Shown here: positions 17,648-62,335 of the stretch, one piece after another
Layout: each line of letters opens with the position of its first letter
Numbering within the stretch: position 1 is the stretch's first letter
From: Bacteroidota bacterium
GTDB lineage: Bacteria; Bacteroidota; Bacteroidia; 2-12-FULL-35-15
Assembly (NCBI GenBank): GCA_029237775.1
Contig: JAQZBR010000006.1
Span: 124,001 to 188,000 of the forward strand
Direction: 5' to 3'
DNA: 64,000 nucleotides
Translations under genes and position numbers: made by a program
Notes under the pieces: model-generated
Seen by the model: the letters and a program-made list of their open reading frames with translations, nothing else
Told to the model about the DNA's origin: nothing
Database searches by the model: none

Positions 17648-17662
17648 TGGCATATTTTTTTT
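17648..17662 (+). promoter_or_regulatory. GGCAT-type shared promoter-like motif, site 1
   Basis: The sequence TGGCAT followed by a long T-run lies with its first G 46 bases before the ATG of the DUF4142 gene. It is one of 16 similar sites before stress and envelope genes in this window, and the only one upstream of 28 kb. Function is inferred from recurrence and spacing. Confidence 0.5.
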
Positions 17663-17694
17663 AAAATTTTGGTAAATCAATTAATAAAAAAAAT

Positions 17695-18261
17695 ATGAAA
17701 AAAATAATTATTTACTTACTTCTTCCGGTTTACGCAGCTTCTTTAACGTCCTGTATGGCAAGTAAAACCGACAGCAAGCGCGTGGCAATGGAAGAAAATA
17801 AAAGCAAACTTTCAAAGGAAATTTGCAAGGACAGCAAATTTGCAGTTTGTGCTGCAGATGCAGGTATGTTGGAAGTTAAATTAAGCGAGCTCGCACAGAC
17901 TAACGCTTCTTCTGCCGCAGTTAAACAATTCGCTAATACAATGATCACCGATCACGGGAAGTTAAATCAGGAATTAAAGGCTCTTGCTGCAGAAAAGAAG
18001 ATCAGTCTTCCTTCTAAGCTCAGCGATAAGAGCCAAAAAACATACGATTGGTTTGAAAAGAAAAAAGGCGAAGATTTCGATAAAGCGTATGCTAAGTGCA
18101 TAACAAGGGCACATAAAATGAAGGTTTGCGAATTTGAGAAAGAAGCTAAAAAAGGGAAGGATGCTGAGATGAAGAAATGGGCTGCTGAGAAAGTACCTGT
18201 CCTGAAGGGCCACTATGAAATGGCAAAGAACACATGCAAAGAAGTAAAAGGGAAAAAATAA
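17695..18261 (+). CDS. DUF4142 lipoprotein, cysteine-containing
   Basis: A 188-residue protein with a lipoprotein signal; the lipobox is LTSC with Cys20. The mature part is a four-helix DUF4142 domain (ferritin-like pattern: AADAGMLEVKLSELAQ, FANTMITDHGKLNQEL). Five further Cys residues occur (in ICKDSKFAVC, KCITRAHKMKVC and NTCKEV), more than expected for this family. The role of DUF4142 is not established; members are often stress-associated. A GGCAT-type site lies upstream and a strong terminator downstream, so it is monocistronic. A second DUF4142 protein is at 32271-32918. Confidence 0.85.
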   Translation: MKKIIIYLLLPVYAASLTSCMASKTDSKRVAMEENKSKLSKEICKDSKFAVCAADAGMLEVKLSELAQTNASSAAVKQFANTMITDHGKLNQELKALAAEKKISLPSKLSDKSQKTYDWFEKKKGEDFDKAYAKCITRAHKMKVCEFEKEAKKGKDAEMKKWAAEKVPVLKGHYEMAKNTCKEVKGKK

Positions 18262-18280
18262 GTTGAGCCTTAGAAATGGG

Positions 18281-18318
18281 AAAGGATATCTGTAATTACG
18301 GATATCCTTTTTTTTTTG
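18281..18318 (+). terminator. Rho-independent terminator after the DUF4142 gene
   Basis: AAAGGATATC pairs with GATATCCTTT around a partly paired TGTAATTACG loop, followed by a run of T residues. Confidence 0.9.
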
Positions 18319-18393
18319 GAAAATTTTATCCTGGTTTATGGAATTGGGAAAATGCGGGCATCTCTGCTGTGAATTATTTCAAACCATAAAGCC

Positions 18394-22821: not shown

Positions 22822-22830
22822 CCTGAACTT

Positions 22831-26017: not shown

Positions 26018-26046
26018 CCTGTTGCGCTGTGAACAAACCTAAGCAT

Positions 26047-27516
26047 ATGAAAAAATTACTTATTATCGAAGACGATATGGACATGAGCCAGTTGCTCAAA
26101 AGATTCCTCACCAAAAACGGATATGATGTGGATCTGGCCATTAATGGAACAAAAGGAATAGCGGCATTCAATGCTAATCCTGCGGATCTGGTTCTCTGTG
26201 ATTACCGTTTAGGTGACATGGATGGAGTAGAAGTATTAAAAAAGGTAAAGGATGTAGAACCCGGTGTTCCGTTCATTATCATGACTGGTTATTCTGATAT
26301 CAGAACAGCAGTTAATGTGATGAAGATGGGTGCTTTCGATTATCTGGCTAAGCCATTGCTTCCGGATGAAACATTGCAGCTGATCAAACGTGCGTTGAAT
26401 TCACAGCAACCGCTGGCAAATATTGTTGATGACAGAAGCAGTTCCTCCTCGTCTGATAGTGATCCTGATGTACAGGCAGCAGTTTCATCTGCCAGAACCT
26501 ATGCAAGTAAAAATAATTATGTGTTTGGAAAAAGCTCACAATCGAAGGAGCTTATCCGTCAGATAGAACTTGTTGCACCAACAAATTACAGTGTGATCAT
26601 TTACGGGGAAAGTGGTGCCGGTAAAGAGGTTATCGCTCAAACAATTCATAAAAAAAGTAAACGTGCCAAGCAGCCGTTCATCGCAATGGATTGTGGCGCT
26701 ATGTCCAAAGAGCTTGCAGGAAGTGAATTATTCGGTCATGAGAAAGGATCGTTCACCGGTGCACTTGGTACCAAGATCGGTCATTTCGAATTAGCTAACG
26801 GAGGAACAATATTCCTTGATGAGATCGCTAACCTTCCATATGATGTTCAGTCTTCTTTATTACGTGTAGTTCAGGAACGTAAAGTAAAACGCATTGGTGG
26901 AACGAAAGAGATTCCTATTGATGTACGTATCATTGTTGCAAGTAATGAAAATCTTAGCGATGCTTACAAAAAAGGTAAGTTCAGAGAAGATCTTTATCAC
27001 CGCTTCAATGAGTTCCATTTAACGGTTGCACCTTTACGTGAGCGTAAGGATGATATCATGATGTATGCTAACTTCTTCCTGAATATTGCAAACCAGGAAT
27101 TGGAGAAAAATGTTGAAACATATTCTCCTGAGGTTGAAGATCTTTTTGTGAAGTATCCATGGTACGGTAACCTTCGTGAAATGAAGAATGTGATCCGCAG
27201 GGCTGTTCTTTTAACTGAAGGGACTATGGTTGAAGCAAAATCACTTCCGTTCGAGATCTCTAACTTCACCCGTACAACTATGGGAATTGTTGATGATAAA
27301 ACAGATCACAATAATCCTTATGCTACAGATGATGCTAAGGACGAAAAGCCTGATTTGAAATCAGCGGCCTTAGGTGCAGAATATGATCTTATCATCAAGG
27401 TATTGAAAGATGTTAATTTCAATAAGAGCAAAGCTGCACAGATCTTGAATATCGATCGTAAAACGCTTTACAATAAAATGAAAGCGTATAACATGGAAGA
27501 AAAACTTAGCGAATGA
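26047..27516 (+). CDS. Sigma-54-dependent response regulator (NtrC family)
   Basis: A response regulator of about 489 residues. The receiver domain (1-120) has D9/D10 and phospho-acceptor D52 in LCDYRLGDMDG. The AAA+ domain has Walker A GESGAGK (187-193) and the sigma-54-contacting loop GSFTGA (234-239), a conservative form of GAFTGA. A Fis-type helix-turn-helix ends the protein (KSKAAQILNIDRKTLYNKM). It would remodel RNA polymerase-sigma-54 at target promoters when phosphorylated; rpoN is at 52825. I chose the ATG at 26047; a GTG at 26029 would add six residues. Its end overlaps the next kinase gene (ATGA). Confidence 0.95.
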   Translation: MKKLLIIEDDMDMSQLLKRFLTKNGYDVDLAINGTKGIAAFNANPADLVLCDYRLGDMDGVEVLKKVKDVEPGVPFIIMTGYSDIRTAVNVMKMGAFDYLAKPLLPDETLQLIKRALNSQQPLANIVDDRSSSSSSDSDPDVQAAVSSARTYASKNNYVFGKSSQSKELIRQIELVAPTNYSVIIYGESGAGKEVIAQTIHKKSKRAKQPFIAMDCGAMSKELAGSELFGHEKGSFTGALGTKIGHFELANGGTIFLDEIANLPYDVQSSLLRVVQERKVKRIGGTKEIPIDVRIIVASNENLSDAYKKGKFREDLYHRFNEFHLTVAPLRERKDDIMMYANFFLNIANQELEKNVETYSPEVEDLFVKYPWYGNLREMKNVIRRAVLLTEGTMVEAKSLPFEISNFTRTTMGIVDDKTDHNNPYATDDAKDEKPDLKSAALGAEYDLIIKVLKDVNFNKSKAAQILNIDRKTLYNKMKAYNMEEKLSE

Positions 27517-28964
27517 AAGCTCCTGAAGTAATTAAAATTTTACTTGTTGAAGACGATGCCGGAGATCACTTTCTGTTTAAAGAATACCTGAGTGATATTA
27601 AGAATTATTCTTATTCTCTTACATGGGCCAATTCATACGAGCAGGGCGTTGAACTTATTGAGAAACGTGAACACGATATATATTTCTTTGATTACTTGCT
27701 TGGAGCCAAAACGGGCCTCGACCTTGTTCAGGCATGTTTCTCTGATATAATCGATGTTCCTGTGATCATCCTGACAGGGCTTGGTAATCAGGAAGCGGAT
27801 ATGAAAGCAATGGAGCTTGGGGTTTCTGATTATCTCGTAAAAGATGAGATAGACCCTGAAAAGCTTGAAAGAACTATTCGCTATTCTATCGGGCAGAGCA
27901 AGATGCTAAAGAAGCTGAAAGACAGTGAAACCAAATTCCGGAGTATTTTCGAAAATTCACATGATATCATTTATGTTTCTGATAAAAATGGAAATTTGCT
28001 TGATATCAATATGTCTGCAGAAAATTTATTCGGATACACCCATGATGAATTGTTGAAGATGAATACTGCTGATCTTTATGAAAATAAGGAAGACAGGACC
28101 AAATTCATTCAAACAATAAACCAAACGGGGATTTGTTCAAACTTCGAGGCAACTTTAAAAGATAAGCACGGCAATAAGAAATTTTGCACTATTACCGCAA
28201 GCATTCAAAGAAGGGATGATGATGATAATATTTATTATCAGGGAATCATTCATGATATGACACAGCGAAAAAAGGCAGAACATGATCTTATGATAGCTGA
28301 GAAGCTTGCGATTACAGGTAAAATCGCGCGTATCCTTGCGCACGAGGTAAGGAATCCTTTGACAAATATTAATCTTTCAGTTGAACAGCTGGAAGAAGAT
28401 TTGAAAGGAGATGAATTTCAGCCATACTTTGATATTATCAAGCGGAACAGTAAAAGGATCAACGATCTTGTTACTGAGCTTATCGAGAATTCCAAGCCAA
28501 TGGAGCTGAAAGCGAACAAGCTGACACTTCAATCGATCTTACAAAGCACCATTGAACTGGCGCGTGATCGTGCTGAATTGAAAAACATCAAAATACTCAC
28601 AGAATTTCAGGACGATCAGATAGAGATCGATGCGGATGAGTCCAAGCTAAAAATTGCATTGCTGAATATTCTGATGAATGCGATAGAAGCTGTAGAAGCA
28701 AATGCAGGAGAAATCAGTATCAAATACAAATGTGAGAACAAAAAATGTTTGATTTCTATAAAAGATAACGGATGTGGAATAAAAGACGATTATCTCGGAA
28801 AGATCTTTGATCCTTATTTTACAGGGAAATCCACTGGTGTCGGTCTCGGTCTCGCAACGACACGCAGCATTATCAATATGCACAATGGAAAAATTGATGT
28901 GGAAACTCAGGTTGGTAAAGGAACCGTATTCCATATTGAGCTGAACCAACTCATCGCCAATTAA
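27513..28964 (+). CDS. Receiver-PAS-histidine kinase
   Basis: A 483-residue soluble protein with an N-terminal receiver (phospho-acceptor D60 in FFDYLLGAKTG), a PAS domain (about 143-260, FENSHDIIYVSDKNGNLLDI), a HisKA domain with H277 in LAHEVRNPLTNI, and a HATPase domain (KDNGCGIKDDYLGKIFDPYF, GVGLGLATTRSII). The four-base overlap with the sigma-54 activator makes it the probable cognate kinase. The N-terminal receiver lets a further kinase, for example the divergent PAS kinase, control it (inference). Confidence 0.93.
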   Translation: MKAPEVIKILLVEDDAGDHFLFKEYLSDIKNYSYSLTWANSYEQGVELIEKREHDIYFFDYLLGAKTGLDLVQACFSDIIDVPVIILTGLGNQEADMKAMELGVSDYLVKDEIDPEKLERTIRYSIGQSKMLKKLKDSETKFRSIFENSHDIIYVSDKNGNLLDINMSAENLFGYTHDELLKMNTADLYENKEDRTKFIQTINQTGICSNFEATLKDKHGNKKFCTITASIQRRDDDDNIYYQGIIHDMTQRKKAEHDLMIAEKLAITGKIARILAHEVRNPLTNINLSVEQLEEDLKGDEFQPYFDIIKRNSKRINDLVTELIENSKPMELKANKLTLQSILQSTIELARDRAELKNIKILTEFQDDQIEIDADESKLKIALLNILMNAIEAVEANAGEISIKYKCENKKCLISIKDNGCGIKDDYLGKIFDPYFTGKSTGVGLGLATTRSIINMHNGKIDVETQVGKGTVFHIELNQLIAN

Positions 28965-28973: not shown

Positions 28974-28988
28974 AGGCATACAATTTTA
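28974..28988 (+). promoter_or_regulatory. GGCAT-type motif, site 2 (SDR-Ku operon)
   Basis: AGGCATACAATTTTA lies with its first G 41 bases before the SDR start codon. It fits the consensus with TA at positions 13-14 and overlaps the left arm of the inverted repeat at 28976-29019. Confidence 0.55.
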
Positions 28989-29019
28989 ATGTTAATTAAA
29001 TAACATTGAAATTGTATGC
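28976..29019 (+). repeat. 19-base inverted repeat covering the SDR start codon
   Basis: Arms 28976-28994 and 29001-29019 pair over 19 positions with one G-T pair and a six-base loop. The right arm includes the ATG at 29016. As RNA the stem would hide the start codon; as DNA it is a dyad that could bind a regulator. There is no T-run after it, so it is not a normal terminator. Confidence 0.85.
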
Positions 29020-29882
29020 AAAAATCAAATCCCAAAAAGAAAATTTTTCCTGCTCAACCGCAGAATAGGCCCGGCCTCGAATTCAAAATGAAGCCGGAGC
29101 CGGTGTATGACGATCTGTCGCCTGGGGCGAACAAGCTGGCGAATAAGAAATGCGTTATCACCGGAGGCGACAGTGGTATAGGTCGCGCAGTCGCCATCGC
29201 CTATGCGAAGGAAGGTGCTGATGTGGCGATAATATATTTGAGCGAGGACAAGGATGCTGAAGAAACAGCAGAGGTTATCAGGGAAAAGTACAAGCGAGAG
29301 TGTTTATTAATTCCTGCAGATATTTCAAAAGAGGCTGCATGCAAAACTGCGGTTTCAAAGATCACCCGTAAGTTCAAGCACATAGATGTACTCGTAAATA
29401 ATGCCGGAGTACATTATCCCGAAGAAAGTATTACTGAAATCACAACCGCGAATCTCCAAAAGACTTTTGCGGTAAATGTGTATTCGATCTTCTGGTTAGT
29501 GAAGGCGTGCCTGCCATATTTTAAAAAAGGTGGTTGTATCATTAATACTTCTTCAGTAACAGCTTATCGCGGAAGCGCGAATTTGCTTGATTATAGCGCC
29601 ACCAAAGGAGCAATCGTATCATTAACAAGAAGTTTATCAGCCAATTTGATCAGTAAAGGTATACGAGTGAACGGAGTCGCACCGGGTCCGATCTGGACAC
29701 CTTTGATCCCATCAAGTTTTGAAAGTAAAAAGGTTACATCATTCGGGACAGAAACGCCAATGAAACGTCCGGGGCAGCCTGTTGAGGTTGCTCCTTCGTA
29801 TGTGTTTCTTGCCAGTGATGATTCTAAATATATAACAGGTCAGTTTATTCATCCTAATGGAGGGGAAATAGTAAATGGTTAA
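29016..29882 (+). CDS. SDR family oxidoreductase (YghA/glucose-dehydrogenase-like)
   Basis: A 288-residue classical short-chain dehydrogenase with a long N-terminal extension of about 45 residues, as in YghA-like stress-associated members. The cofactor motif ITGGDSGIGRAVAIAYAKEG, the NNAG motif (VLVNNAGVHYP), the catalytic Ser in INTSSVTAYRG and YSATKGA (YxxxK) are complete. The substrate is unknown. It heads an operon with an unknown gene and Ku; its last eight bases overlap the next gene. The start codon lies inside a 19-base hairpin. Confidence 0.9.
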   Translation: MQKSNPKKKIFPAQPQNRPGLEFKMKPEPVYDDLSPGANKLANKKCVITGGDSGIGRAVAIAYAKEGADVAIIYLSEDKDAEETAEVIREKYKRECLLIPADISKEAACKTAVSKITRKFKHIDVLVNNAGVHYPEESITEITTANLQKTFAVNVYSIFWLVKACLPYFKKGGCIINTSSVTAYRGSANLLDYSATKGAIVSLTRSLSANLISKGIRVNGVAPGPIWTPLIPSSFESKKVTSFGTETPMKRPGQPVEVAPSYVFLASDDSKYITGQFIHPNGGEIVNG

Positions 29883-30261
29883 CATAAAAAAATTATACGG
29901 CATGGATACGGACTCAAGCGAGTTCGTTAAAAATGAATTAGAAGGGAAGCTTACGATCAGGCTTAATCCCGGAAAAACATTGGATGAGTTTTGTGAAAAG
30001 CATTTCGATAATTATAACAGTGATCAGTTTGAAGCTGTTGCGATTCGTGTTTATTACGGTAAAGAAACAGTGGTCACACTTTATGCGCTTGATAAAGTAA
30101 GACAGGAAGGGACAAATTATAACATCAATAAGATCCCGGTAAAAAAATTCAAGACCAGCACTTTCGGATTGACAGAGCTTTTAATGTTCGTTCAGGAATT
30201 TAATTTCACCATCAGTACAAGGAATTTTCCTCTGGAAGACATGGAAGTAATAAACAAATAA
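29875..30261 (+). CDS. Protein of unknown function between SDR and Ku genes
   Basis: A 128-residue soluble protein with mixed alpha/beta character and no signal peptide, membrane segment or Cys motif. Recognisable stretches are [19 protein letters not shown] and a C-terminal [19 protein letters not shown]. It overlaps the SDR gene by eight bases and ends 11 bases before Ku, so all three are one operon. I do not recognise a family. A link to stress or DNA repair is only by position. Confidence 0.75.
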
Positions 30262-30272
30262 AATTACAGCTT

Positions 30273-31049
30273 ATGAGAGCAATGTGGACGGGAGCTATAA
30301 GCTTCGGGTTGATAAATATTCCGGTCAGATTATTTTCTGCTGTTCAAAGCAGCACTCTGAACCTGGATATGCTGGATAAGAGAGATCACTCCAATATTAA
30401 GTTTAAACGGGTAAATGAAAATACCGGAAAAGCGGTCCCATATGAAAATATTGTAAAGGGGTACCTGATGGATGATCAATATGTTGTTTTAGACAAAGAG
30501 GATTTTGAGAATGCCGATGCTGCTAAAACAAAAACAATTGAGATCATAAATTTTGTAAAGGAGAGCGAGATAGACAGCATATATTATGAGCAGCCGTATT
30601 TTCTGGAACCACAGAAGAGTGGATTGAAAGCATATACGCTGTTACGTGAAGCGCTCGCTGCATCAAAAAAAGTTGGAGTAACAACCTTTGTGCTGCGGAA
30701 TAAAGAGGCGCTTGCTATTCTTAAGCCTTATGGAAATGTCATAATGCTTAACAGGCTTCGTTTCGAAGAAGAGATCCGCGATCCTAAAGAGCTGGATGTT
30801 CCTGCTACAACAAAAACGAATGCAAAGGAGCAGGCAATGGCCACAAAGCTGATTGATTCACTCACAGAGAAATTCAGTATAGCGAAGTACAAAGATACTT
30901 ACACCGAAAAATTATTGAAAACGATTAAAGAGAAAGCAAAAGGAAAAACTGCGAAGAAAGTTCATAAGATGAAAGTGGTGCATACCAAATCAGATGACCT
31001 TATGGATATGTTAAAAGCCAGTCTCCAGGGAAGAAAGAAGGCTTCGTAG
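30273..31049 (+). CDS. ku: Ku protein (bacterial non-homologous end joining)
   Basis: A 258-residue bacterial Ku. It begins with the conserved [20 protein letters not shown] and carries the family segments in order, including [21 protein letters not shown] in parts and the LRPYG-like [15 protein letters not shown]. The C-terminus is Lys-rich, typical of the DNA-binding tail. Ku homodimers bind DNA ends and recruit LigD. No ligase D gene is in the window. Third gene of the SDR operon. The stop codon overlaps the GGCAT-type site serving the next gene. Confidence 0.93.
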
Positions 31050-31062
31050 GCATGAATATTTC
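31048..31062 (+). promoter_or_regulatory. GGCAT-type motif, site 3
   Basis: AGGCATGAATATTTC begins inside the Ku stop codon; first G is 49 bases before the ATG at 31098. Closely resembles the site before the YtxH gene. Confidence 0.5.
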
Positions 31063-31097
31063 TTGAAATTATCAAGTACAATTTAAATTGACTCGAT

Positions 31098-31352
31098 ATG
31101 AAAACGATAAACAGATTTGAGGACAGGATTACGTATCCAAGTCCGAATGAACCGGGAGGCCGTCCGGGCCGCCAGGATAAGTCAGAAAAAGAACGTGTGG
31201 AAGAGGATGAGGACGATCCCATGTTTGATGACAGTGACGAAGCATTCGAGAATTTCGATGATGAAGACGATGAAGATGCTTATGAGATCAATGATAAACA
31301 CAAACGATCGGATCGTGCTGAAATATATGATTATATGAACGCTTCACTTTAA
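31098..31352 (+). CDS. Small acidic disordered protein
   Basis: An 84-residue protein with no signal peptide. The N-terminal third is basic and Pro/Gly-rich (YPSPNEPGGRPGRQ). The middle is an almost continuous run of Asp and Glu (about residues 34-64), so the protein should be largely unstructured. No known domain is seen. It follows Ku by 48 bases, has its own GGCAT-type site and is closed by a strong terminator. Such acidic proteins can mimic DNA or bind basic partners; that is speculation here. Confidence 0.7.
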   Translation: MKTINRFEDRITYPSPNEPGGRPGRQDKSEKERVEEDEDDPMFDDSDEAFENFDDEDDEDAYEINDKHKRSDRAEIYDYMNASL

Positions 31353-31388: not shown

Positions 31389-31403
31389 AGGTATGTTTTT
31401 TGA
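31389..31403 (+). promoter_or_regulatory. GGCAT-type motif, site 4 (GGTAT variant)
   Basis: AGGTATGTTTTTTGA, first G 44 bases before the ATG at 31434. Nearly the same as the variant before the gene at 58987. Confidence 0.45.
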
Positions 31404-31433
31404 ATGTTAGAATTATATTTAATAACTAAAATC

Positions 31434-32918: not shown

Positions 32919-32950
32919 AGTTTTTAATGATTTTAGATTGTACAGAATAT

Positions 32951-32965
32951 TATAATTTTATGCCA
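32951..32965 (-). promoter_or_regulatory. GGCAT-type motif, site 5
   Basis: Minus strand TGGCATAAAATTATA, first G 46 bases before the DUF4142 start, and preceded by AGGA as at the lmo0937 site. Confidence 0.55.
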
Positions 32966-41519: not shown

Positions 41520-41523
41520 TAAG

Positions 41524-41538
41524 TACAGATTCATGCCA
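41524..41538 (-). promoter_or_regulatory. GGCAT-type motif, site 8
   Basis: Minus strand TGGCATGAATCTGTA, first G 41 bases before the YihY start. It overlaps the first two codons of the divergent gene. Confidence 0.45.
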
Positions 41539-45055: not shown

Positions 45056-45070
45056 TGGCATCTATTTTTA
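45056..45070 (+). promoter_or_regulatory. GGCAT-type motif, site 9
   Basis: TGGCATCTATTTTTA, first G 47 bases before the ATG at 45104. One of the best matches to the consensus. Confidence 0.55.
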
Positions 45071-45103
45071 AGTTCTATCCTAAACAACTAAAATCACACA
45101 ATT

Positions 45104-48076: not shown

Positions 48077-48104
48077 AAATTTAAAAATTGACTAAATCTA
48101 TAAA

Positions 48105-48119
48105 TATATAAGCATGCCA
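48105..48119 (-). promoter_or_regulatory. GGCAT-type motif, site 10
   Basis: Minus strand TGGCATGCTTATATA, first G 42 bases before the DUF748 start; shares CGTAAT(T)GGCATG with the OmpA-gene site. Confidence 0.55.
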
Positions 48120-49816: not shown

Positions 49817-50587
49817 TTAATCTTTAAAAAATAATTGTACCCATGGATCTTCTATCTGCTGAATTGATTGCATAGTTCCTTGTGCATAAATTTCTCCTTC
49901 TTTCAGAAGCAAGGCACGGTCCGCAACGGCTCTGGCACATGGCATGTCGTGGGTAATGATCAATGATGATGTATGATATTTATTTCGTATCTCGTTTATT
50001 AATGCACTTATTTCCTGCGAGGTTATAGGATCAAGCCCGGTAGTGGGTTCATCATAAAGAATGATTGATGGATCAAGAATTATAGTCCGTGCAAGCGCAA
50101 TTCGTTTTCTCATACCACCCGACAGTTGGGAAGGCATTTTGTTGAGGGCACTTGCGAGCCCTACAGCTTCGAGTGCCTCCATCGTTTTATCCTTAATGTC
50201 TTTTTCAGAAATACCTTTTTTGATTCTCCGTAAAGGGAATTCAAGATTTTCTTTTACTGTCATCGAATCATAAAGTGCTCCGCTCTGAAAAAGAAATCCG
50301 ATCTTCTTCCTGAGTTCCGCAAGTTCTTTGGCTCTCAGGTTACCCACTTCATTGCCAAGAACATTTATTGTTCCCTCGTCTGCAGTCATTAGCTGTACAA
50401 TACATTTTATAAGCACCGACTTTCCTGATCCTGATTTGCCAAGCACAATTAAATTCTCTCCTTTTATAAGATCAAAGGTCAGCCCTTTAAGGACATGCTG
50501 TTCGCCAAAAGATTTTTTCAGATCTTTAACCTTAATAACCGGTTCTCCTTTAACTGCCTCTTCTCTATATTGTCCTTCTGTACTCAT
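49817..50587 (-). CDS. mlaF: Mla-type ABC transporter ATP-binding protein
   Basis: A 256-residue ABC ATPase. Walker A is GKSGSGKS (about residues 54-61), the signature LSGGMRKRIALAR and Walker B IILYDEPTTGLDP are complete, and an H-loop Asp/His pair ends the core (ITHDMPCARAVADR). This is the MlaF class, which energises phospholipid movement. The start overlaps the permease gene by four bases. Confidence 0.93.
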   Translation of the reverse strand: MSTEGQYREEAVKGEPVIKVKDLKKSFGEQHVLKGLTFDLIKGENLIVLGKSGSGKSVLIKCIVQLMTADEGTINVLGNEVGNLRAKELAELRKKIGFLFQSGALYDSMTVKENLEFPLRRIKKGISEKDIKDKTMEALEAVGLASALNKMPSQLSGGMRKRIALARTIILDPSIILYDEPTTGLDPITSQEISALINEIRNKYHTSSLIITHDMPCARAVADRALLLKEGEIYAQGTMQSIQQIEDPWVQLFFKD

Positions 50588-51423
50588 ATCATCAGGTCGG
50601 TTATTTGAACTACTATCAGATCCACAATAATTATCAAAAGTGAGGAAAGTACCACCGCTGAATTAGCAGCGATCCCAACACTTTCTGTTCCTTTTCCTGC
50701 ATTATATCCTTTATAGCAACCTACCAATCCGATCACTAAGCCGAAGAAGAAAGACTTGATAAATGCCGGAATAAAATCAATAAAATCAACCGAACTGAAA
50801 GCTCTTGAAAAGAACAAGGCAATGTTGAGTTCTGTTTTTATATTAACACCGATCCAGCTACCAACCATTCCGAGGGCATCTGCAAATAGAACAAGTACCG
50901 GTATCATTAATGTTGCTGCAAGTACTCGCGTAACAACAAGATATTTCATCGGGTTCACTGCTGAAACTTCCATCGCTTCAATTTGCTCCGTCACCTTCAT
51001 GGAGCCAAGCTCTGCTCCGATACCTGACCCTATTTTTCCTGCACAGATCAATGCTGTGATAACAGGGCCGATCTCTCTTATAAGAGACACTGCCACCATC
51101 TGAGGTAACATACTCTCTGCTCCGAAGTCGTTCAGGATCGGGCGTGACTGAATTGTTAGTACGAGCCCCATGATCGCGCCAGTGATAGCTACTAAAGGCA
51201 AAGAGCGGTTTCCGATCTCATAACATTGCTTAAGAAATTCTTTGAATTCAAATGGAAATGAAAAAAACTGACGCAGGGTTTGAAGAATGAAAAGCGTCAT
51301 GTTGCCTGCACGGGTGAAGAATGTTTTTGCATCCTCCGCTCTGGCAATTGTTCTTTCACTCAGAAGAACTGATCCTTCTGTAGCGATGTTCTTAACCTTT
51401 GATATTGGCGTAAAGTTTTTCAT
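50584..51423 (-). CDS. mlaE: MlaE-type ABC transporter permease
   Basis: A 279-residue membrane protein of the MlaE family, with about five to six hydrophobic helices and the conserved segment KVTEQIEAMEVSAVNPMKYLVVTR in parts plus GAIMGLVLTIQSRPILNDFGAE in parts. It is the first gene of the mlaE-mlaF-mlaD-like operon. No mlaB or mlaC is visible, as is common in Bacteroidota. A possible GGCAT-type site lies 38 bases before the start. Confidence 0.92.
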   Translation of the reverse strand: MKNFTPISKVKNIATEGSVLLSERTIARAEDAKTFFTRAGNMTLFILQTLRQFFSFPFEFKEFLKQCYEIGNRSLPLVAITGAIMGLVLTIQSRPILNDFGAESMLPQMVAVSLIREIGPVITALICAGKIGSGIGAELGSMKVTEQIEAMEVSAVNPMKYLVVTRVLAATLMIPVLVLFADALGMVGSWIGVNIKTELNIALFFSRAFSSVDFIDFIPAFIKSFFFGLVIGLVGCYKGYNAGKGTESVGIAANSAVVLSSLLIIIVDLIVVQITDLMI

Positions 51424-51447
51424 TTTTTAATTAGTCACGTTACAGTT

Positions 51448-51462
51448 CCAAATCCAATGCCC
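51448..51462 (-). promoter_or_regulatory. GGCAT-type motif, site 11 (weak)
   Basis: Minus strand GGGCATTGGATTTGG, first G of GGCAT 38 bases before the mlaE start. The GGCAT and TTT positions fit, the following TA does not. Confidence 0.35.
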
Positions 51463-51580: not shown

Positions 51581-51595
51581 AGGCATGATTATTCA
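51581..51595 (+). promoter_or_regulatory. GGCAT-type motif, site 12
   Basis: AGGCATGATTATTCA, first G 61 bases before the ATG at 51643, the longest spacing of the set; close to site 3. Confidence 0.45.
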
Positions 51596-51642
51596 ATTAT
51601 TTAAGTAAAATTTATAAAAACAACTTTAAAAAATAAAACACT

Positions 51643-51963
51643 ATGTCAGACAATGGAAAAGTTTTAGGCGCATTGGTGCTCGGTGCAGCAGCAGGTGCAG
51701 TATTAGGATTATTATTCGCTCCTAGCTCAGGAGCTGATTTGAGAAAGAAGATCTCTGAGAACAGCGGTGATCTTATCGATGAGCTTACTGGTAAAATTGA
51801 AGAAGGTAAAGAAATGCTTTCAGGTTTAAAGGAAAAAGCAATGTCTAAAGCTGATGAATTAAAAAGCAGAGCTGAAGATGAGTTAAGCAGCATGAAGAAC
51901 AAAGCAAAACAAACAGCTGCTAACGTTACTTCTTCTACTTCAACAGCAAATCATTCTCACTAA
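51643..51963 (+). CDS. YtxH-domain protein
   Basis: A 106-residue protein. The N-terminal helix with a small-residue pattern (LGALVLGAAAGAVLGLLFAPSSGADLR, residues 5-31 in parts) is the YtxH hallmark: a membrane anchor followed by FAPxSG. The rest is an amphipathic Lys/Glu-rich helix, as in late-embryogenesis-abundant-like proteins. YtxH proteins are stress-induced in Firmicutes; here a GGCAT-type site precedes it. It leads a three-gene run before rpoN. Confidence 0.9.
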   Translation: MSDNGKVLGALVLGAAAGAVLGLLFAPSSGADLRKKISENSGDLIDELTGKIEEGKEMLSGLKEKAMSKADELKSRAEDELSSMKNKAKQTAANVTSSTSTANHSH

Positions 51964-52824: not shown

Positions 52825-54270
52825 ATGAATCAACATCAAAGTCAGAAACAAAACCAACAGTTAAAACGCGGATATTACATGTCGCAGCAGCATATGAAGC
52901 TGATGCATATCATGCATTTGTCCGGATACGCGTTGCAGGAATATATAGCTAACGAATTGGAGCAAAATCCGGTTCTGGAGGCCGAAGACCAGGGTGAAAA
53001 TCAGGAAGAGCCGGAAGTTCAGAAAGAAACGGAATTCGATAACGAATTAATGTGGAATAAGGATGATGAGGACTTGTTTGAAAAGAACTACAAGCAGCCT
53101 GTTTCCAACGAAGATTATTATGAAGCCCCGGTGATCCAGTTCAATTCTTTGCAGGAAAACCTAAAGGAGCAGATCCACATGATGAATCTAACAGATGAGA
53201 TGCGTAACATCATATGTTATCTTGTTGATGAGCTAGATGATGACGGATACCTGAGAAGGGATATTAACGATGTTATTGATGATTACGCATTCCTGAGAGG
53301 AAAAATGATCCAGGAAGAGAAAATGATCGATGCATTACATCTTTTGCAAAAATGTGAGCCGGCAGGAGTCGGTGCACGAAATTTACACGAATGCTTATTG
53401 ATACAGTTAAAGAGAAAAACCAAGAAATGCCCAACACGTGAAAAGTGTATCCGCATTTTTGAAGATCATTACCAGAACTTCGTTCAGCGTAATTTTCATA
53501 AAATAAAATCAGACCTTAACATTACAGGAGAAGAGTTTGAAAGCTGCATGAACTACATTAAAAAGTTAAATCCGAAACCAATTACTGAAGCTAATAAATA
53601 CGAACTTATCAAGGAACAAATAATCCCTGATTTTGAAGTTACTATTGAAGATTCAGATCTATATATTGCACTAACTTCTTCCGAATTTACGAAGTTAAGA
53701 GTGAACCCGGAATTTTCGTCCGGATCTCTGGCAACAAACACCGCCTCTGAAAAGAAACAGGCTGAGAACTATTTTCAAACCCTTGTTTCCGATGCACAGG
53801 TACTTATAAATGCATTAAAAGAACGAGAGACAACAATGATGAAGATCATCACCGTGATTGTTCAAATGCAACCCGACTTTTTCAAAAGCGGGGATATCCA
53901 GGAATTACGTCCTATGATCCTTCAGGATATTTCCAACAGGACTGGTTTTGATATCAGTACCATTTCAAGAATTACAAGCAACAAGCACGTTCAAACTCCT
54001 TTTGGAATCTTTAGCCTTAAGAATTTGTTTATGCGTGCGCTTGTCTCTGAATCCGATGGTTCTTCATCAACTGCGATACAGGTGCAGGACCTGATCCAGA
54101 AAATAGTGAAAGAAGAAAATAAGCTTAAGCCGCTTTCTGATACAGACATCATGAATTTGTTGAAGCAGAAGGATGTTAATATTGCCCGGAGAACCGTTGT
54201 TAAATATCGTGAGCTGCTTGGAATTCCAAACAGCACAATGCGAAAGAAAGAACAAATGGTATTAAATTAA
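52825..54270 (+). CDS. rpoN: RNA polymerase sigma-54 factor
   Basis: A 481-residue sigma-54. Region I at the N-terminus is Gln-rich and starts QKQNQQLKRGYYMSQQHMKLM, with the LxxYI-type segments that touch activators. An acidic linker (about 55-95) follows, then the core-binding domain (LVDELDDDGYL, CEPAGVGARNLHECL) and the DNA-binding domain ending in the RpoN box ARRTVVKYRELLGIPNSTMR (ARRTV-KYRE). It directs transcription from -24/-12 promoters, with activators such as that at 26047. A strong terminator follows. Confidence 0.96.
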   Translation: MNQHQSQKQNQQLKRGYYMSQQHMKLMHIMHLSGYALQEYIANELEQNPVLEAEDQGENQEEPEVQKETEFDNELMWNKDDEDLFEKNYKQPVSNEDYYEAPVIQFNSLQENLKEQIHMMNLTDEMRNIICYLVDELDDDGYLRRDINDVIDDYAFLRGKMIQEEKMIDALHLLQKCEPAGVGARNLHECLLIQLKRKTKKCPTREKCIRIFEDHYQNFVQRNFHKIKSDLNITGEEFESCMNYIKKLNPKPITEANKYELIKEQIIPDFEVTIEDSDLYIALTSSEFTKLRVNPEFSSGSLATNTASEKKQAENYFQTLVSDAQVLINALKERETTMMKIITVIVQMQPDFFKSGDIQELRPMILQDISNRTGFDISTISRITSNKHVQTPFGIFSLKNLFMRALVSESDGSSSTAIQVQDLIQKIVKEENKLKPLSDTDIMNLLKQKDVNIARRTVVKYRELLGIPNSTMRKKEQMVLN

Positions 54271-54920: not shown

Positions 54921-56971
54921 TTAAAATTGTATGGTTATGCCTACTTTTAAATTGCGGGGAGGTGCAGCATTAAAATATCTACCCGATGCAGCATTGAGAT
55001 CGTTTCCCAGACTGTATGTTTCGTTTAGCACATTGTCCACTAAAGCATATGCTTCCAGTTTTATTCTTTTTTTTAATTCGACTATCTTACCTGCTTTTAT
55101 TCGTAACAAATTATACGGTTCGGAGTAAGTTAAGTTGTCATCAGACAAAGGTATTTGGGAGGTATAACAATAGCTGCTGAATAAATAAATGTGATAGGGG
55201 AAATCGAACTTGAGATCCGTGGTGAGGACATACTCCGGAACTCCTGTAAGCTGGTTGCCTGAATAATCATTCGTATTATTCGTGTAAGATAAGAATCTGA
55301 AATCATTATATGTGATCCCTGTGTTCAAGATACATTGTTTCAGGAACGTTTATCATCAAACTTTTTAAGGATTAAAGCGGACTGGAATTCAATACCCTGT
55401 TGCAATGTTCCACCTGAATTGATAAAATATTCTGTACCTGTGTCCAAAGTCCTTCTGACAATAGCATCCTTTAATTGGAAACTAAACACAGCCAGGTCGA
55501 GCTGAAGCCGTTGGTTAAAACTGAAATATCTTATACCGGTTTCATAGTTCCACCCGAACTCCGGCTGAAGATCGGTATGAAATAGATTGTCGGAAGGCCT
55601 TACCTCAGCTAGTGTTGGTGGTGAATACCCTTTACTGACAGATGCTCTCCAAACAAGGTTGTTTATTATCCGATACGACATTCCCGCTTTTGGCATCAAC
55701 TGTGAATTCAATCTGATGTTGTTAACTTGATTATTTGATTGATTAGGCAACGTTTGGTAATGGTATGAATAAGTATTCAGGCTACCTGATAATTCCACTT
55801 GTAACCTGGTTGAAAAAAGCAAATTCAGCTGACTGAAAAATATTTGTTGTTGGGCACTGAGATGATTATGCGAAAGTATTTTTTCCGCATTTCCTTGTTC
55901 ATTCTCATGGTTTATCACATTCATTGCGTTTCGCGATCCTTCATATCCGAATGTAAAATTTGTTTTTACGGATTCGAATTGTTTCCTGAAGTTTAAATAA
56001 GTCCTCAGACCTAAATTGTTTTCAAACCTCTTTTCATAGTTAGTTATAAACGGATTTTTAAAATCTGTATAGCTTCCGAAGACTGTAATAACATGTGTCA
56101 GATTTCGGAAAATATTCACTTTGTTGGAAATACCTGCATACGTAGTTTTATTAAAAACTGCAGCACGTTGTTCTTCTGCACCGGGTAGTTTAGAAGTCGC
56201 GGGCCGTGCAGAGTTGGCTTGTGTTTCGAACTGTTGCAATGTTAAACCACCGGGTGTCTCGTAGTTAAGATCTGAATAAATGAACATTGTTTTTAAGTCA
56301 CCTTTTTTATATAAAAGCTTTTGGAAAAATTGTAGCGAGTTCCTGCTCATTTCACTGTTTTTCCGATAGCCATCGGATCTCATGTAGCCCTGATTTATTT
56401 CGATCGTATATTTTTTTATTATTTGTTTTAATGATAAGTGTTCAGATCCAAAACCATACGAACCACCTGCTAAAGAAAGAACTGACGCTGCTGAGTCGGC
56501 AGAAACAGAATTTAAAACGATTACTCCGCCAGTGTTAGCACCGAAGAGACTTCCTTCAGGTCCCTTTAAAATTTGGATGTGTTTTACTGATATTGGATCA
56601 ATCACATTGAGATAAGTATTTCCTCCGGCATCGGTAAGGGGAAACTCATCCATGTAAATTTTTATATTTCTGATGCCAAACGGTGAGCGAAGTAAGCTGC
56701 CGCGTATTGAAAGACGGTAACTGCCCGGAGAGCGTTCTTCCATGCGTACACCAGGCTGAGAATTTATGACATGTATGAGACTACCGGATGTATGGTCATT
56801 GATTTGCTCGCTGGAAATTGAAGCCACCGAACCAGTGGAGTGGAGTAACAGAGGTTTGGAAGGATAAGCATTGATTGTAATCTGCTCGAGTTGAATAGTT
56901 GAGTCGATGTTCTGGCCGGGCACAAGGGTCCTAAGGAAATTAAATACAATTGCCAGTAAAAGACGCCTCAT
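54921..56971 (-). pseudogene. TonB-dependent receptor with a frameshift
   Basis: Two adjoining frames together encode a TonB-dependent receptor of about 680 residues. The first part (56971-55340) has a signal peptide, the plug (PGVRMEERSPGSYRLSIRGS; LKGPEGSLFGANTGGVIVLNS) and most of the barrel, and stops at a TGA at 55340-55342 (...KKFDDKRS). The second part (to 54921) carries the last strands, from LNTGITYNDF, and ends properly in Phe (GITIQF). Loss of one base near 55343-55350 explains the break. It is either a true inactivating mutation or a sequencing error. I chose the ATG at 56971, before a signal peptide; it lies four bases after the preceding stop. Ligand unknown. Confidence 0.8.
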
Positions 56972-56975
56972 AGAT

Positions 56976-58250
56976 TTATTTTTTCGCGCTAACACGCCAG
57001 ATAGTATTAGTGACATCGTCAGTCACAAGCATAGATCCGTCTCTTAGGATTGTGATTCCAACAGGCCTGCCATGAACTTCATTTTTTTTCAGATCAGAGA
57101 TAAAACCTGAGAGAAAATCTTCTGCTTTACCTGAAGGTTTTCCATTTTTGAAAGGAACAAAAATCACTTTATATCCCGATAGTGTTGATCTGTTCCATGA
57201 TCCATGCTGAGCAATAAATGCTCCATCATGATATTTTTTTGGAAAAGCTTTAGCTGTATAAAAGGCAAGACCGAGTGATGCTGTGTGAGGCCCCAGGCTG
57301 AAATCAGGAACTATGGCCTTTTTAACCAGATCGGGCTTCATCTCTTTCACTCTTGGATCAAGATGTTGTCCATAGTATGAGTATGGCCAGCCATAAAAAC
57401 CTCCTGGCTTTACGCTTGTCAAATAATCAGGGACAAGCTCATCGCCCAGCTCATCTCGTTCGTTAACCGCTGTCCATAAAGTTTTTGTCCCCGGTGCCCA
57501 AGCCATTCCTACAGGATTTCTTAAGCCGGATGCATATACTTTAAGACCACTGCCATCTAAATTCATCTCAAGAATATTTGCTCGAAGCAATTCATTCTCG
57601 ATACCGAACTCGGCTACATTGCTTCCTGAACCTACGGCTATATATATTTTAGAGCTGTCTGCATTCGTAATGATATTTCTTGTCCAATGTCTGTTATGTT
57701 CTCCGGCAGGTAAGTCGACAATTTTTTCCGCTGAAGCTGAGATTTTTGTTTCACCCGGTGTGTAAGGGAATCTGATTACAGCATTCGTGTTGCCTATATA
57801 CAACCATTTTCCTATGACCAGCATTCCAAAGGGCTGATTCAGATTTTCCAGGAAGGTATGTTTCTCATCGGGTTTCCCATCATTATCGTTATCACGCAAA
57901 AGGGTGATCCTGTCTGCGCTGTGTTTTAAGTTATTTGATTTGGCGGCTCCCATAACTGTTGCCCCCACCTGTTCAACGAAATTATGATTTGAGTTGCTTT
58001 CAGCTACCAAAACATCTCCATTTGGAGTTACGTAGGTCCATCTCGGATTTTCGAAACCGTCCGAATACACATCTACACTCAGCCCTTCGGGTGCTTTTGG
58101 CTTGGCGTCTTTCCAGCCTATAACATTGCAAAAATTCGTAGATGACTTTGTCGCATAGGGAGCAGGGAGCGTATCTTTTTTAGAAGAATTTTCCTGGGCG
58201 CTAATTGAGAGTGAGTGAGCTAATAATATAAGCAGGGCTATAGATCTCAT
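56976..58250 (-). CDS. PQQ-dependent sugar (sorbosone-type) dehydrogenase
   Basis: A 424-residue exported protein with signal peptide (about 1-18). The body is a six-bladed beta-propeller of the soluble glucose/sorbosone dehydrogenase type; conserved stretches include GEHNRHWTRNI, ASGLRNPVGMAWAPGT and a C-terminal HGSWNRSTLSGYKV, and RPVGITILRDGSMLVTDD. Such enzymes oxidise aldoses in the periplasm with PQQ and calcium. PQQ synthesis genes are not in the window; the cofactor may be imported, possibly by the neighbouring TonB receptor (inference). It lies 12 bases after the receiver-like gene. Confidence 0.85.
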   Translation of the reverse strand: MRSIALLILLAHSLSISAQENSSKKDTLPAPYATKSSTNFCNVIGWKDAKPKAPEGLSVDVYSDGFENPRWTYVTPNGDVLVAESNSNHNFVEQVGATVMGAAKSNNLKHSADRITLLRDNDNDGKPDEKHTFLENLNQPFGMLVIGKWLYIGNTNAVIRFPYTPGETKISASAEKIVDLPAGEHNRHWTRNIITNADSSKIYIAVGSGSNVAEFGIENELLRANILEMNLDGSGLKVYASGLRNPVGMAWAPGTKTLWTAVNERDELGDELVPDYLTSVKPGGFYGWPYSYYGQHLDPRVKEMKPDLVKKAIVPDFSLGPHTASLGLAFYTAKAFPKKYHDGAFIAQHGSWNRSTLSGYKVIFVPFKNGKPSGKAEDFLSGFISDLKKNEVHGRPVGITILRDGSMLVTDDVTNTIWRVSAKK

Positions 58251-58262
58251 TTATATATCAAA

Positions 58263-58760
58263 TTAGTTGCTGATCAGAACCCAGCAAACGATTCCCATTA
58301 CTAAGAAAATTGTTAAAAATATCACTACGAATTTCTTTACCCCGAATTCCCTGATTATTCTGCGGATAGGTTCAGTGAACCGCCTGTTTATGATAGATCT
58401 GATATGTGAGAATGAATTTGCTTCTTTAACAACATAGCTGCTCGCTCCTTTCTTTATTGACGTAAGGATTACTCTTATATCATCGTTTGAAGAATGCATT
58501 ACAACTTCAGTTAAAGGATATTTCTTTTTTATGAACTTTAAAAGATCCACTCCGTTTACCGGGGAATTCTTTTTCTTGAAGTCATAAGCCAGAATCACCA
58601 TATGGACATTCTCATGCATATGTTCAAGGCATTCCTTTCCATCATTATATACTGTGATGTTGATATTGGATCCAAACTGTTGTTTGAGGTCGTTTCTTAA
58701 AGCAGCCGTCATGATCTGATCTTCGTCTGCAATGAAAACATTAAGTTGCTGATTAGCCAT
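58263..58760 (-). CDS. Degenerate receiver protein with C-terminal membrane helix
   Basis: A 165-residue protein. The N-terminal receiver fold is recognisable (NVFIADEDQIMTAALRNDL; GASSYVVKEA). At the phospho-acceptor position the sequence reads VILAYDF: residue 58 is Ala in place of the usual Asp, with Asp60 two residues on. A hydrophobic helix (about 143-163, VVIFLTIFLVMGIVCWVLIS) ends the protein. A receiver tethered to the membrane by its C-terminus and lacking the Asp is unusual. It heads an operon with the PQQ enzyme, the receptor and the permease-like gene, behind a GGCAT-type site. Confidence 0.85.
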   Translation of the reverse strand: MANQQLNVFIADEDQIMTAALRNDLKQQFGSNINITVYNDGKECLEHMHENVHMVILAYDFKKKNSPVNGVDLLKFIKKKYPLTEVVMHSSNDDIRVILTSIKKGASSYVVKEANSFSHIRSIINRRFTEPIRRIIREFGVKKFVVIFLTIFLVMGIVCWVLISN

Positions 58761-58791
58761 AGAGATTATATTTTGAGATTAATCAGATAGA

Positions 58792-58806
58792 TAAAACTAT
58801 ATGCCA
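58792..58806 (-). promoter_or_regulatory. GGCAT-type motif, site 13
   Basis: Minus strand TGGCATATAGTTTTA, first G 45 bases before the receiver-like gene; preceded by GGA as at sites 5 and 6. Confidence 0.55.
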
Positions 58807-58942: not shown

Positions 58943-58957
58943 TGGTATGTTTTTTAG
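58943..58957 (+). promoter_or_regulatory. GGCAT-type motif, site 14 (GGTAT variant)
   Basis: TGGTATGTTTTTTAG, first G 43 bases before the ATG at 58987. Confidence 0.5.
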
Positions 58958-58986
58958 TGATGAGGGGTAGTAGAATTATTTAGAGT

Positions 58987-59637
58987 ATGAAAAAGATATA
59001 TTTGATAATAGGATTTTTAGGAATGAGCTTATGTGTCTCGGCTCAGGAAGAACCTAAAAAAGAAAGCAGGCGGGATGAGCGCAATAAGCTGCATTTTGGT
59101 GTTAAGCTCGGAATAAACAATTCAAATGTTTATGATGAGGAAGGTGAGGAATTTAATGCAGAACCCAAATACGGGTTTGCCGGAGGGGCATTCTTATCAA
59201 TTCCTGTCGGGAAGTTCCTTGGACTTCAGCCTGCAGTGCTTATTTCCCAAAAAGGATTCTCGGCAACAGGCAAATTACTGGAGCTCGAATACGAATTAAA
59301 AAGAACGACAACCTATCTTGATGTTCCTCTTATGGTTGAGCTGAAACCTATAAGAGCTCTTACATTATTAGCCGGACCTCAATATTCGTATTTGTTGAAT
59401 CAGACTGATATTTTAAAAAGCGGAAACAGCACTGTTATTCAGGAGCAGGAATTCAAGAACGATGATATACGAAAGAATATTTTAAGTGCAGCTGTGGGCT
59501 TTGATATTCACATCACACGGTTTGTTGTTTCAGGAAGATATAATTTTGATCTGCAAAAAAATAACAGCGATGGGAGTTCACAAACACCGCGCTATAAGAA
59601 CATGTGGCTTCAGGGAACAATAGGCCTCAGGTTCTAA
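58987..59637 (+). CDS. Outer-membrane beta-barrel (porin-family, OMP_b-brl-like) protein
   Basis: A 216-residue protein with a signal peptide (about 1-19, SVSAQ). The mature part has the eight-stranded small barrel pattern of Bacteroidota: HFGVKLGINNSNVYDEEGEE in parts, YGFAGGAFLSIPVGKFLGLQP, and ends GTIGLRF with the C-terminal Phe. Function is unknown. It is followed 50 bases later by a coiled-coil lipoprotein, probably on one transcript that ends at the terminator at 60131. Confidence 0.88.
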   Translation: MKKIYLIIGFLGMSLCVSAQEEPKKESRRDERNKLHFGVKLGINNSNVYDEEGEEFNAEPKYGFAGGAFLSIPVGKFLGLQPAVLISQKGFSATGKLLELEYELKRTTTYLDVPLMVELKPIRALTLLAGPQYSYLLNQTDILKSGNSTVIQEQEFKNDDIRKNILSAAVGFDIHITRFVVSGRYNFDLQKNNSDGSSQTPRYKNMWLQGTIGLRF

Positions 59638-60446: not shown

Positions 60447-60489
60447 ATTTTATAATGCCGATTTTAATATACAGTTACTGATACACCGT

Positions 60490-62262
60490 TTATTCACCCT
60501 TATACTTATTGTTTCTCACCTTAACTTCAACTCGCCTGTTTACCTGGTGCTGATTATCATCACATTCAACCCCGTCTTTACAATGATTTGTAAGCTGAGA
60601 TTCACCCATTCCTTTTATGATTTCTATTCTGGAAGTATTTAGGCCTTTTCCCATCACACGCTGCTTTGCAACGTTTGCTCTTTTCAGTGAAAGATTTATG
60701 TTATACTGCTCTTCACCTCTTGAGTCAGAATGCCCATAGATTTCAACTACCAGATCTTTATTAGTTTTAAGCACCTGAATATTGTTATCAATGATCTTCA
60801 AAGCATCCTCCCTTAAAGTTGATGCATTATAGTTAAAATAAAGTGGAGTGGGGTCCCAGCCTAAAGGTTTTAATTCATCTTCTGAAAGATATTTGTTAAC
60901 CGGAGCCTCAGTTGGTTTTTCATTTACAGCTAAAGTTGTACTGTCTTTAGGCTCTTTTAATGCAAGGGCCGGGTCATTTAAGCTGTCGATCTTAATAGGC
61001 TCTGCCGGCCCGATATTATAAATGTCCAGGTCACCATAGCCCCCCGGTCTTGCTGAGGAGAAATAGCCTATTTTTTTATCTGTTAATATAAGAAACACAT
61101 CGTTGCCTGAAGAGTTCACTGGCGCACCAAGATTTTCAGGGCTGCTCCATTTTCCATTTACAAGTTGTGTTTTGTAGATGTCATACCCACCATATCCCGG
61201 ATGTCCATTTGATGCAAAATATAAAACACCCTCGTCATCAATGTACGGTGCATCTTCGTTAAAAATTGTATTCACAGTCGAATCAAGTAGTTCTGCTTTT
61301 GACCATTCTCCTTTATCATCCTTCACAGATCGATATATATCAGTTCCTCCGAATCCATTCCAAGCCTCACTTGAAAAATATAGCACTTTGTTATCTCTTG
61401 ATACCGCAGCATGATTCTGATACCTGGAAATATTAACATTTTTACTAAGCTTAACAGGTTTTTTGCCGGCATTGTCAACGGGGACCTGATAAATATCTCC
61501 GCCCTTGTAAATGAACATTGTCTGCCCATCCGGAGAAAGGGAAACTGTAGATTCATTATATTTTGAGAATATTGATTTGCCCTGCAGGTCGGGACGTGTG
61601 TAACGAACAGGCTCTGTATATCGCCCGCCCTCGTACCGTGAAATATACATGCTTTCATAATACTTGCCATCCCACTTATTTATCTTCTCTTTTTCATTAT
61701 CCTTTCTTTTCGAAGTGAAGATCAGTTCTTTGCTGGGGCTGACTACCGGTACATATTCTGCCTGAGCGCTGTTGATCTTAGGGCCGATATTTTTTATTTC
61801 CCAACCATTGCCTTTGTTTTGATTTTGTTGAGCATAGTTACAATCGGCAATATTTTTGGCAACGTATTTCGAGAACATGGGGTCACCTATCTCTTCGTAA
61901 TTTTTTAGTTTGTTATAGCAAAACAGAGCTTTGTCATACTCACCCGCAAACTGATAACACTTGCCCAGGTTGTAATACAATGTAAGCATTGAATCATTTT
62001 TGGTCTGGCTCACCGCTTTCTCAAGATAAGGAAGTGCCTGTTCATACTTATCCATTAGCTCACCCAAAACTATTCCCTTGCCCGCATTGGCATCATAGGA
62101 ATTTTCATTGATCGCAAGCGCCTGGTCATAATAATCAATAGCTTTTGCGTATTCAACTTTATATACGGCCTTTTCAGCCTTCTTAATGTATTTGCTCGTT
62201 TGCTTTTGGCCGTATGAAGAAAGGCAGGCAGCTATAAGTACCGTTAGTACAATGTTTTTCAT
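60490..62262 (-). CDS. OmpA-family protein with TPR and PD40 repeats
   Basis: A 590-residue exported protein (signal peptide to about 18). N-terminal TPR repeats (about 25-150: AKAIDYYDQALAINENSYDA, ALPYLEKAVSQ) are followed by PD40/WD40-like propeller repeats (SPSKELIFTSKRKD, SPDGQTMFIYKGGDIYQV, GVLYFASNGHPGYGGYDIY) and a C-terminal OmpA domain (EIYGHSDSRGEEQYNINLSLKRA in parts; NRRVEVKV). It would be an outer-membrane or periplasmic protein bound to peptidoglycan, common in Bacteroidota. A GGCAT-type site lies upstream and a terminator downstream. Confidence 0.93.
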   Translation of the reverse strand: MKNIVLTVLIAACLSSYGQKQTSKYIKKAEKAVYKVEYAKAIDYYDQALAINENSYDANAGKGIVLGELMDKYEQALPYLEKAVSQTKNDSMLTLYYNLGKCYQFAGEYDKALFCYNKLKNYEEIGDPMFSKYVAKNIADCNYAQQNQNKGNGWEIKNIGPKINSAQAEYVPVVSPSKELIFTSKRKDNEKEKINKWDGKYYESMYISRYEGGRYTEPVRYTRPDLQGKSIFSKYNESTVSLSPDGQTMFIYKGGDIYQVPVDNAGKKPVKLSKNVNISRYQNHAAVSRDNKVLYFSSEAWNGFGGTDIYRSVKDDKGEWSKAELLDSTVNTIFNEDAPYIDDEGVLYFASNGHPGYGGYDIYKTQLVNGKWSSPENLGAPVNSSGNDVFLILTDKKIGYFSSARPGGYGDLDIYNIGPAEPIKIDSLNDPALALKEPKDSTTLAVNEKPTEAPVNKYLSEDELKPLGWDPTPLYFNYNASTLREDALKIIDNNIQVLKTNKDLVVEIYGHSDSRGEEQYNINLSLKRANVAKQRVMGKGLNTSRIEIIKGMGESQLTNHCKDGVECDDNQHQVNRRVEVKVRNNKYKGE

Positions 62263-62297
62263 GACATGATGATTTAAACTATATTAAGCAGATAGAA

Positions 62298-62312
62298 TTA
62301 AAATACATGCCA
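62298..62312 (-). promoter_or_regulatory. GGCAT-type motif, site 15
   Basis: Minus strand TGGCATGTATTTTAA, first G 49 bases before the OmpA-family start. Confidence 0.55.
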
Positions 62313-62320
62313 TTACGATC

Positions 62321-62335
62321 TGGCAAGAATTTTTA
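62321..62335 (+). promoter_or_regulatory. GGCAT-type motif, site 16
   Basis: TGGCAAGAATTTTTA, first G 50 bases before the ATG at 62372. Divergent to site 15, with nine bases between the two boxes. Confidence 0.5.

Follow-up and report, generated by a model that had tools for sequence, protein, structure and literature searches.

A second sigma-54 and a probable -24/-12 promoter motif with TA at -12 around envelope and stress genes of a Bacteroidota genome

Introduction

The canonical sigma-54 promoter reads TGGCAC-N5-7-TTGCT, and within the Bacteroidota grpE is reported to be under sigma-54 control in B. thetaiotaomicron and F. psychrophilum (PMC12316311). The helix-turn-helix of sigma-54 is the part that contacts the -12 region (PMC5505868). 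In PMC11999139, which cites Poggio 2006, RpoN1, RpoN2 and RpoN3 of Cereibacter (Rhodobacter) sphaeroides are described as serving separate gene sets with the activators NifA, FleQ and AprX, and the available portions of PMC3538637 and PMC13207237 describe accessory copies of rpoN2 in Mesorhizobium loti and Bradyrhizobium DOA9, located on symbiosis islands or megaplasmids.

Here we analyse a window, i.e. the whole stretch of 64,000 nucleotides at positions 124001-188000 of contig C6, in a Bacteroidota genome of 4.08 Mb (the own genome, G000). Its close relatives are uncultured, metagenome-assembled Bacteroidetes, at least two of them from groundwater or lakes judging by titles, and they are not independent samples. 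A preliminary description of the window had reported 16 copies of a GGCAT-type motif, and had read them as the targets of one sigma factor, perhaps of a divergent -24/-12 type, that form an envelope and general stress regulon.

Results

The motif and its sites

All 16 sites (16/16) are present where they had been reported, and their distances to the start codon, 41-51 nt with the exceptions 27, 38 and 61, agree with our recount, in which a simple longest-ORF caller supplied the gene starts and the distance of site 31389 is counted to a signal-peptide ATG at 31434. For the minus-strand sites the low end had been given; the first T lies 14 bases higher.

On the plus strand, sites are found at 17648-17663 before a DUF4142 gene (17695-18261; the ortholog in G015 also carries the site), at 28974-28989 before an operon of an SDR gene and Ku (29016-31049; conserved in G014, G015 and G007), at 31048-31063 before a small gene (31098-31352), at 31389-31404, of the GGTAT type, before the gene of a small secreted protein (start 31434), at 41505-41520 before an AsmA-like gene (41533-43215; conserved in G007), at 45056-45071 before a gene of 119 aa (45104-45463), whose orthologs have the motif or the variants TGGCAC, TGGCAA or TGGCAG upstream in most relatives, at 51581-51596 before a YtxH gene (51643-51963), at 58943-58958 before an outer-membrane barrel gene (58987-59637) and at 62321-62336 before the gene of a 68-aa membrane protein (62372-62578; conserved in G014, G007 and G006). 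The minus-strand sites lie at 32950-32965 before the second DUF4142 gene (32271-32918; conserved in G014, G015 and G007), at 40490-40505 before the gene of a 50-aa membrane protein (40301-40453; lmo0937-like in the naming of the preliminary description), at 41523-41538 before a YihY/BrkB gene (40561-41496), at 48104-48119 before a DUF748 gene (46793-48076; conserved in G014, G007, G006 and JACPOC), at 51447-51462, a weaker site, before an MlaE operon (50584-51423), at 58791-58806 before an operon of a response regulator, GSDH and a TonB receptor (55340-58760; conserved in G014, G015, G013, G007 and JAJONO) and at 62297-62312 before an OmpA/TPR gene (60490-62262; the site reads TGGCACTATATTTTAA in G015). 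Relatives also have the motif before a PfpI-like gene, which was recognised by eye and on its sequence only. Between the BrkB and AsmA-like genes two opposed copies fall inside 34 bp (41505-41538), which would set the two divergent promoters in competition for one piece of DNA.

Over both strands the window holds 65 copies of WGGCAT. Twelve of them lie 20-70 nt upstream of a start codon on the same strand, where 1.4 are expected (binomial p=1.7e-8), and no comparable enrichment before start codons was found with permuted-matrix controls. The motif is real. A loose pattern, GGCATNNNNNNNTA, was dropped, as it showed no excess when set against its reversed control.

Aligned on GG, the sites give the consensus T-G-G-C-A-T-(A/G)-N-W-T-T-T-T-T-A-A, or in short form TGGCAT(A/G)-N3-TTTTA, and GGTAT variants are a minority. 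A T is fixed 10 nt past the first G, and TA is the commonest dinucleotide directly after GG-N10; among 63 different sites, collected in the window and in relatives, the two -12 positions are T in 75% and A in 65%. The -24 block TGGCA is present, with 10 nt separating GG from the -12 dinucleotide, but T/A stands in place of the canonical GC (TTGC) in these 63 sites, and 842 kb of the own genome contain no well-placed TTGC site. With the -24 block in place, a fixed T where TTGCA begins and TA replacing the GC, the frame is that of a predicted sigma-54 -24/-12 promoter (TGGCACG-N4-TTGCA) in which the -12 GC has been swapped for TA. Outside the 16 scored positions the only clear excess in the 63 sites is an A at position 27 (43/63 vs 39%), which is where +1/+2 of a -24/-12 promoter would be expected and therefore counts for the sigma-54 reading.

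Genes for stress and envelope functions are often under ECF control, and the motif could be an ECF or sigma-70-type promoter, or else the operator of a DNA-binding regulator. Bacteroidota sigma-70 promoters have the form TTG / TAnnTTTG, in which some 19 nt separate the -7 block from the first, and the blocks of ECF promoters are about 16-17 nt apart. The blocks of the motif are however 12 bp apart, not 16-19, with nothing further downstream, and neither TAnnTTTG nor any other columns of a sigma-70 or ECF second block appear among the 63 aligned sites. The motif is also not a palindrome, has an orientation and keeps a fixed distance to the start codons, and we regard a promoter or operator of these kinds as quite improbable.

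A second sigma-54 gene, an activator and a kinase

The window contains a sigma-54 gene (52825-54270, plus strand; 481 aa), here called rpoN2, as well as an activator and a kinase gene (26029-28964), all of which the preliminary description had overlooked. The predicted RpoN2 has the activator-interacting, core-binding and DNA-binding domains (Pfam AID 1.5e-7, CBD 4e-47, DBD 8e-49), scores 372.9 bits against TIGR02395 (cut-off 277.35) and matches sigma-54 chains in the PDB over residues 8-475 with E down to 5e-61. It carries the RpoN box ARRTVVKYRE, and a STISR stretch with the conserved arginine of the helix-turn-helix (R383 in K. pneumoniae). The three domains, the box and the arginine place this predicted protein in the sigma-54 (RpoN) family. 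The ordinary sigma-54 of the own genome, RpoN1, is encoded on contig C3 and is 36% identical to RpoN2.

The recognition helices of the two proteins differ at only a few positions, SR-ITSNK(H/Y) in RpoN2 vs SRV(A/S/T)NSKY in RpoN1, but they do so without exception in 27 Bacteroidota sequences, and this difference may be what causes the switch at -12.

The activator gene (26029-27516, plus strand; translation may in fact begin with the ATG at 26047) encodes, according to Pfam, a REC domain, an AAA+ domain with a GSFTGA loop and a Fis-type HTH. Its stop is overlapped by the start of a gene for a hybrid kinase with REC, PAS, HisKA and HATPase domains, also by Pfam (27513-28964, plus strand). The GAFTGA loop of activators contacts sigma-54, and we considered an unusual loop as a mark of the activator's specificity. 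This was dropped, because a second activator in the own genome also has GSFTGA and the activator of the distant genome G217 (see below) has GAFTGA. A separate sigma-54 activator of 390-400 aa, conserved across the genus (L038 in the own genome, L134-L139), has GAFTSA replacing GAFTGA. In 58 upstream regions nothing convincing was found as a shared activator-binding dyad or 8-mer. Upstream of rpoN2, the activator and the kinase there is no copy of the motif, and it therefore seems that the module does not activate itself.

Distribution among related genomes

RpoN1 is found in practically all of the 36 genomes of the genus, RpoN2 in 10 with the own genome counted, and the other nine RpoN2 proteins are 64-90% identical to it. 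One of these genes (G007:C128:11102-12410) is split across two reading frames, by a frameshift or an assembly error. Orthologs of the activator (78-92% identity) occur in 8/10 genomes with RpoN2 and in 0/26 without it (p=1.5e-6); the two RpoN2 genomes that lack it, G008 and G021, are fragmented assemblies of 78-83% completeness. The own genome resembles the C. sphaeroides type of specialised paralogs in that it holds more than one rpoN together with an activator, here in the sense of co-occurrence, and RpoN2 is predicted to depend on this AAA+ protein.

Around rpoN2, 13 GTDB loci (216 kb) contain 28 matrix matches of at least 12 bits placed 25-70 nt before a start, vs 0.25 with permuted matrices. 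The stretches of G014 and G013 have 12 and 7 placed matches vs 0.4 and 0, and some loci with RpoN2 have few, e.g. G017. Upstream regions of orthologs reach at least 10 bits in 28/70 cases for the motif genes of the window vs 5/141 for its other genes (p=3e-11), and many of the remaining motif-gene upstreams carry TGGCAC variants. The YihY/BrkB site is kept in 4/5 orthologs from genomes with RpoN2, and the motif is absent upstream of the homologs in genomes without it.

Our scan of the own genome covered 842 kb of the 4.08 Mb, about a fifth. In the 778 kb outside the window there are 7 well-placed matches of at least 13 bits vs 0.8 expected, which indicates a regulon concentrated around rpoN2 with few outliers. 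These 778 kb thus contain no more than some six well-placed sites beyond the number expected by chance, and the motif is mostly local. Runs of T are common in a genome of 39% GC, and some likeness could arise by chance in AT-rich upstream DNA. Column-permuted matrices however give 0.25-1.4 matches where 7-28 are seen, and orthologous promoters retain the motif, which refutes chance as an explanation and leaves it hardly any credibility.

As a control we used 400 kb from each of two genomes without RpoN2 (800 kb in total). Matches of at least 12 bits number 1 and 2 vs about 0.8 expected, which is not a convincing enrichment. Raw counts of TGGCATNNNNTTTTA over all 36 whole genomes do not tell those with RpoN2 from those without, and are uninformative because coding matches swamp the signal.

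The reader of the motif could instead be RpoN1, with RpoN2 having another role. RpoN1 is there in nearly every genome with the same RpoN box for reading -24, and -12 elements vary naturally. But the form GGCA-N6-TTTA is found at promoter distance in 0/43 cases in the two control genomes vs 8/47 in the own genome outside the window (p=0.004), and the motif genes cluster round rpoN2. There is also a different candidate for the promoter of RpoN1. Most genomes of the genus have a conserved sigma-54-like site, TGGCA(A/G)-N5-TTGA, before grpE, and it keeps this distinct form with or without RpoN2 (loci compared: G000:C6:110842(+) in L038 and 30 grpE loci, L188-L217). This TGGCA-N6-TTGA-type promoter is presumably that of RpoN1, and chaperone genes may be among its targets here. 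A related site, TGGCATAATGATTGAA, precedes dnaK in G000 and G014. Judged from these sites the two paralogs seem to differ at -12, with TTGA for RpoN1 and TTTA for RpoN2, and we hold RpoN1 to be an unlikely reader of the motif. The claim of the preliminary description that the 16 sites form one motif is borne out with the exception of the site at 51448 on the minus strand, which scores only 7.9 bits, reads TTGGA at -12, and TTGAA in several orthologs, and probably belongs to this second, RpoN1-like class.

A distant copy of the module

Among 247 genomes of the class there is one from another family, G217, that has an RpoN2-like gene beside its own RpoN1. The protein shares the ITSNKY helix, and downstream of its gene come an activator and a hybrid kinase, in the window's order and with the same 4-nt overlap between the two. 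Promoter-like sites before nearby genes read TGGCACTTTTATTTAAC, TGGCACAAAAATATAG and TGGCACAAAAATATAGC, of the TTTAA/TATAG type. The other nine genomes of this family are without the gene, and the distribution of the cassette is therefore patchy in this family as well. In a tree the G217 protein groups with RpoN2 (support 100/99) on a long branch. As to the origin of RpoN2 the tree was unreadable, with G217 and the proteobacterial outgroup on very long branches.

Discussion

Taken on its sequence features, RpoN2 with the activator and the kinase is most likely what reads the motif. We think it probable that this second sigma-54 uses the motif as its core promoter, which would be activator-gated and serve an envelope and stress set near rpoN2. 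The proposal of the preliminary description, one sigma factor of a divergent -24/-12 type and an envelope and stress regulon, gains support from the GG-N10-TA geometry and from the second sigma-54 in the window itself. In the RpoN2 holoenzyme the conserved RpoN box would recognise TGGCAT at -24 and the altered helix-turn-helix TTTTA at -12, and the polymerase would wait on the promoter as a closed complex. The partner kinase (27513-28964) presumably phosphorylates the activator (26029-27516), which would then open the complex through ATP hydrolysis. The genes switched on would be the set clustered round rpoN2, with the two DUF4142 genes, the SDR-Ku operon, BrkB, AsmA/DUF748, YtxH, OmpA, the response regulator-GSDH-TonB receptor operon and small membrane proteins. 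The inducing signal would be envelope or general stress.

The module of RpoN2, activator and kinase occurs in two families within the class. We hypothesize, with about even confidence for and against, that it is portable and has evolved a -12 code of its own, in which TA takes the place of GC and which is distinct from that of the resident sigma-54, and that it governs an envelope and general stress response in Bacteroidota. If this is true, it would be a natural orthogonal sigma-54 system, and could possibly be used as an orthogonal, activator-gated expression system. To our knowledge GC is retained at -12 in nearly all sigma-54 promoters described, and a search with matrices based on GC would miss the RpoN2 regulon. 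The occurrence of RpoN2, with a different -12 element, beside an ordinary sigma-54 in one cell makes recognition of -12 by the helix-turn-helix directly testable, and the results point to a sigma-54-driven stress response in Bacteroidota.

The motif shares with the canonical sigma-54 promoter the TGGCA at -24, the spacing and the T-run into -12, but has TTTTA at -12 instead of TTGC, and T instead of C at position 5. The known sigma-54 control of grpE concerns the same phylum, and grpE has a conserved sigma-54-like site here as well; unlike the motif, this TTGA site occurs whether or not RpoN2 is present and probably belongs to RpoN1. As in C. sphaeroides there would be sigma-54 paralogs with separate gene sets and cognate activators, and that species also discriminates within the -12 region (position -11). 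A separation of target promoters between the paralogs is here suggested indirectly, by the TTTA sites vs the TTGA sites of grpE. The nif, flagellar and xrpA targets described in C. sphaeroides have the usual GG and GC, whereas here TA stands in for the GC at -12, and the setting is an envelope and stress island around the sigma gene in a member of the Bacteroidota. Like rpoN2 of M. loti and Bradyrhizobium DOA9, as far as the available portions of those reports describe it, the gene encodes an additional, accessory sigma-54 that some members of a group possess; what sets it apart from them is its own activator and the changed promoter element. Specialised sigma-54 paralogs are already known elsewhere, and what is new here is the variant with its apparently recoded -12 element.
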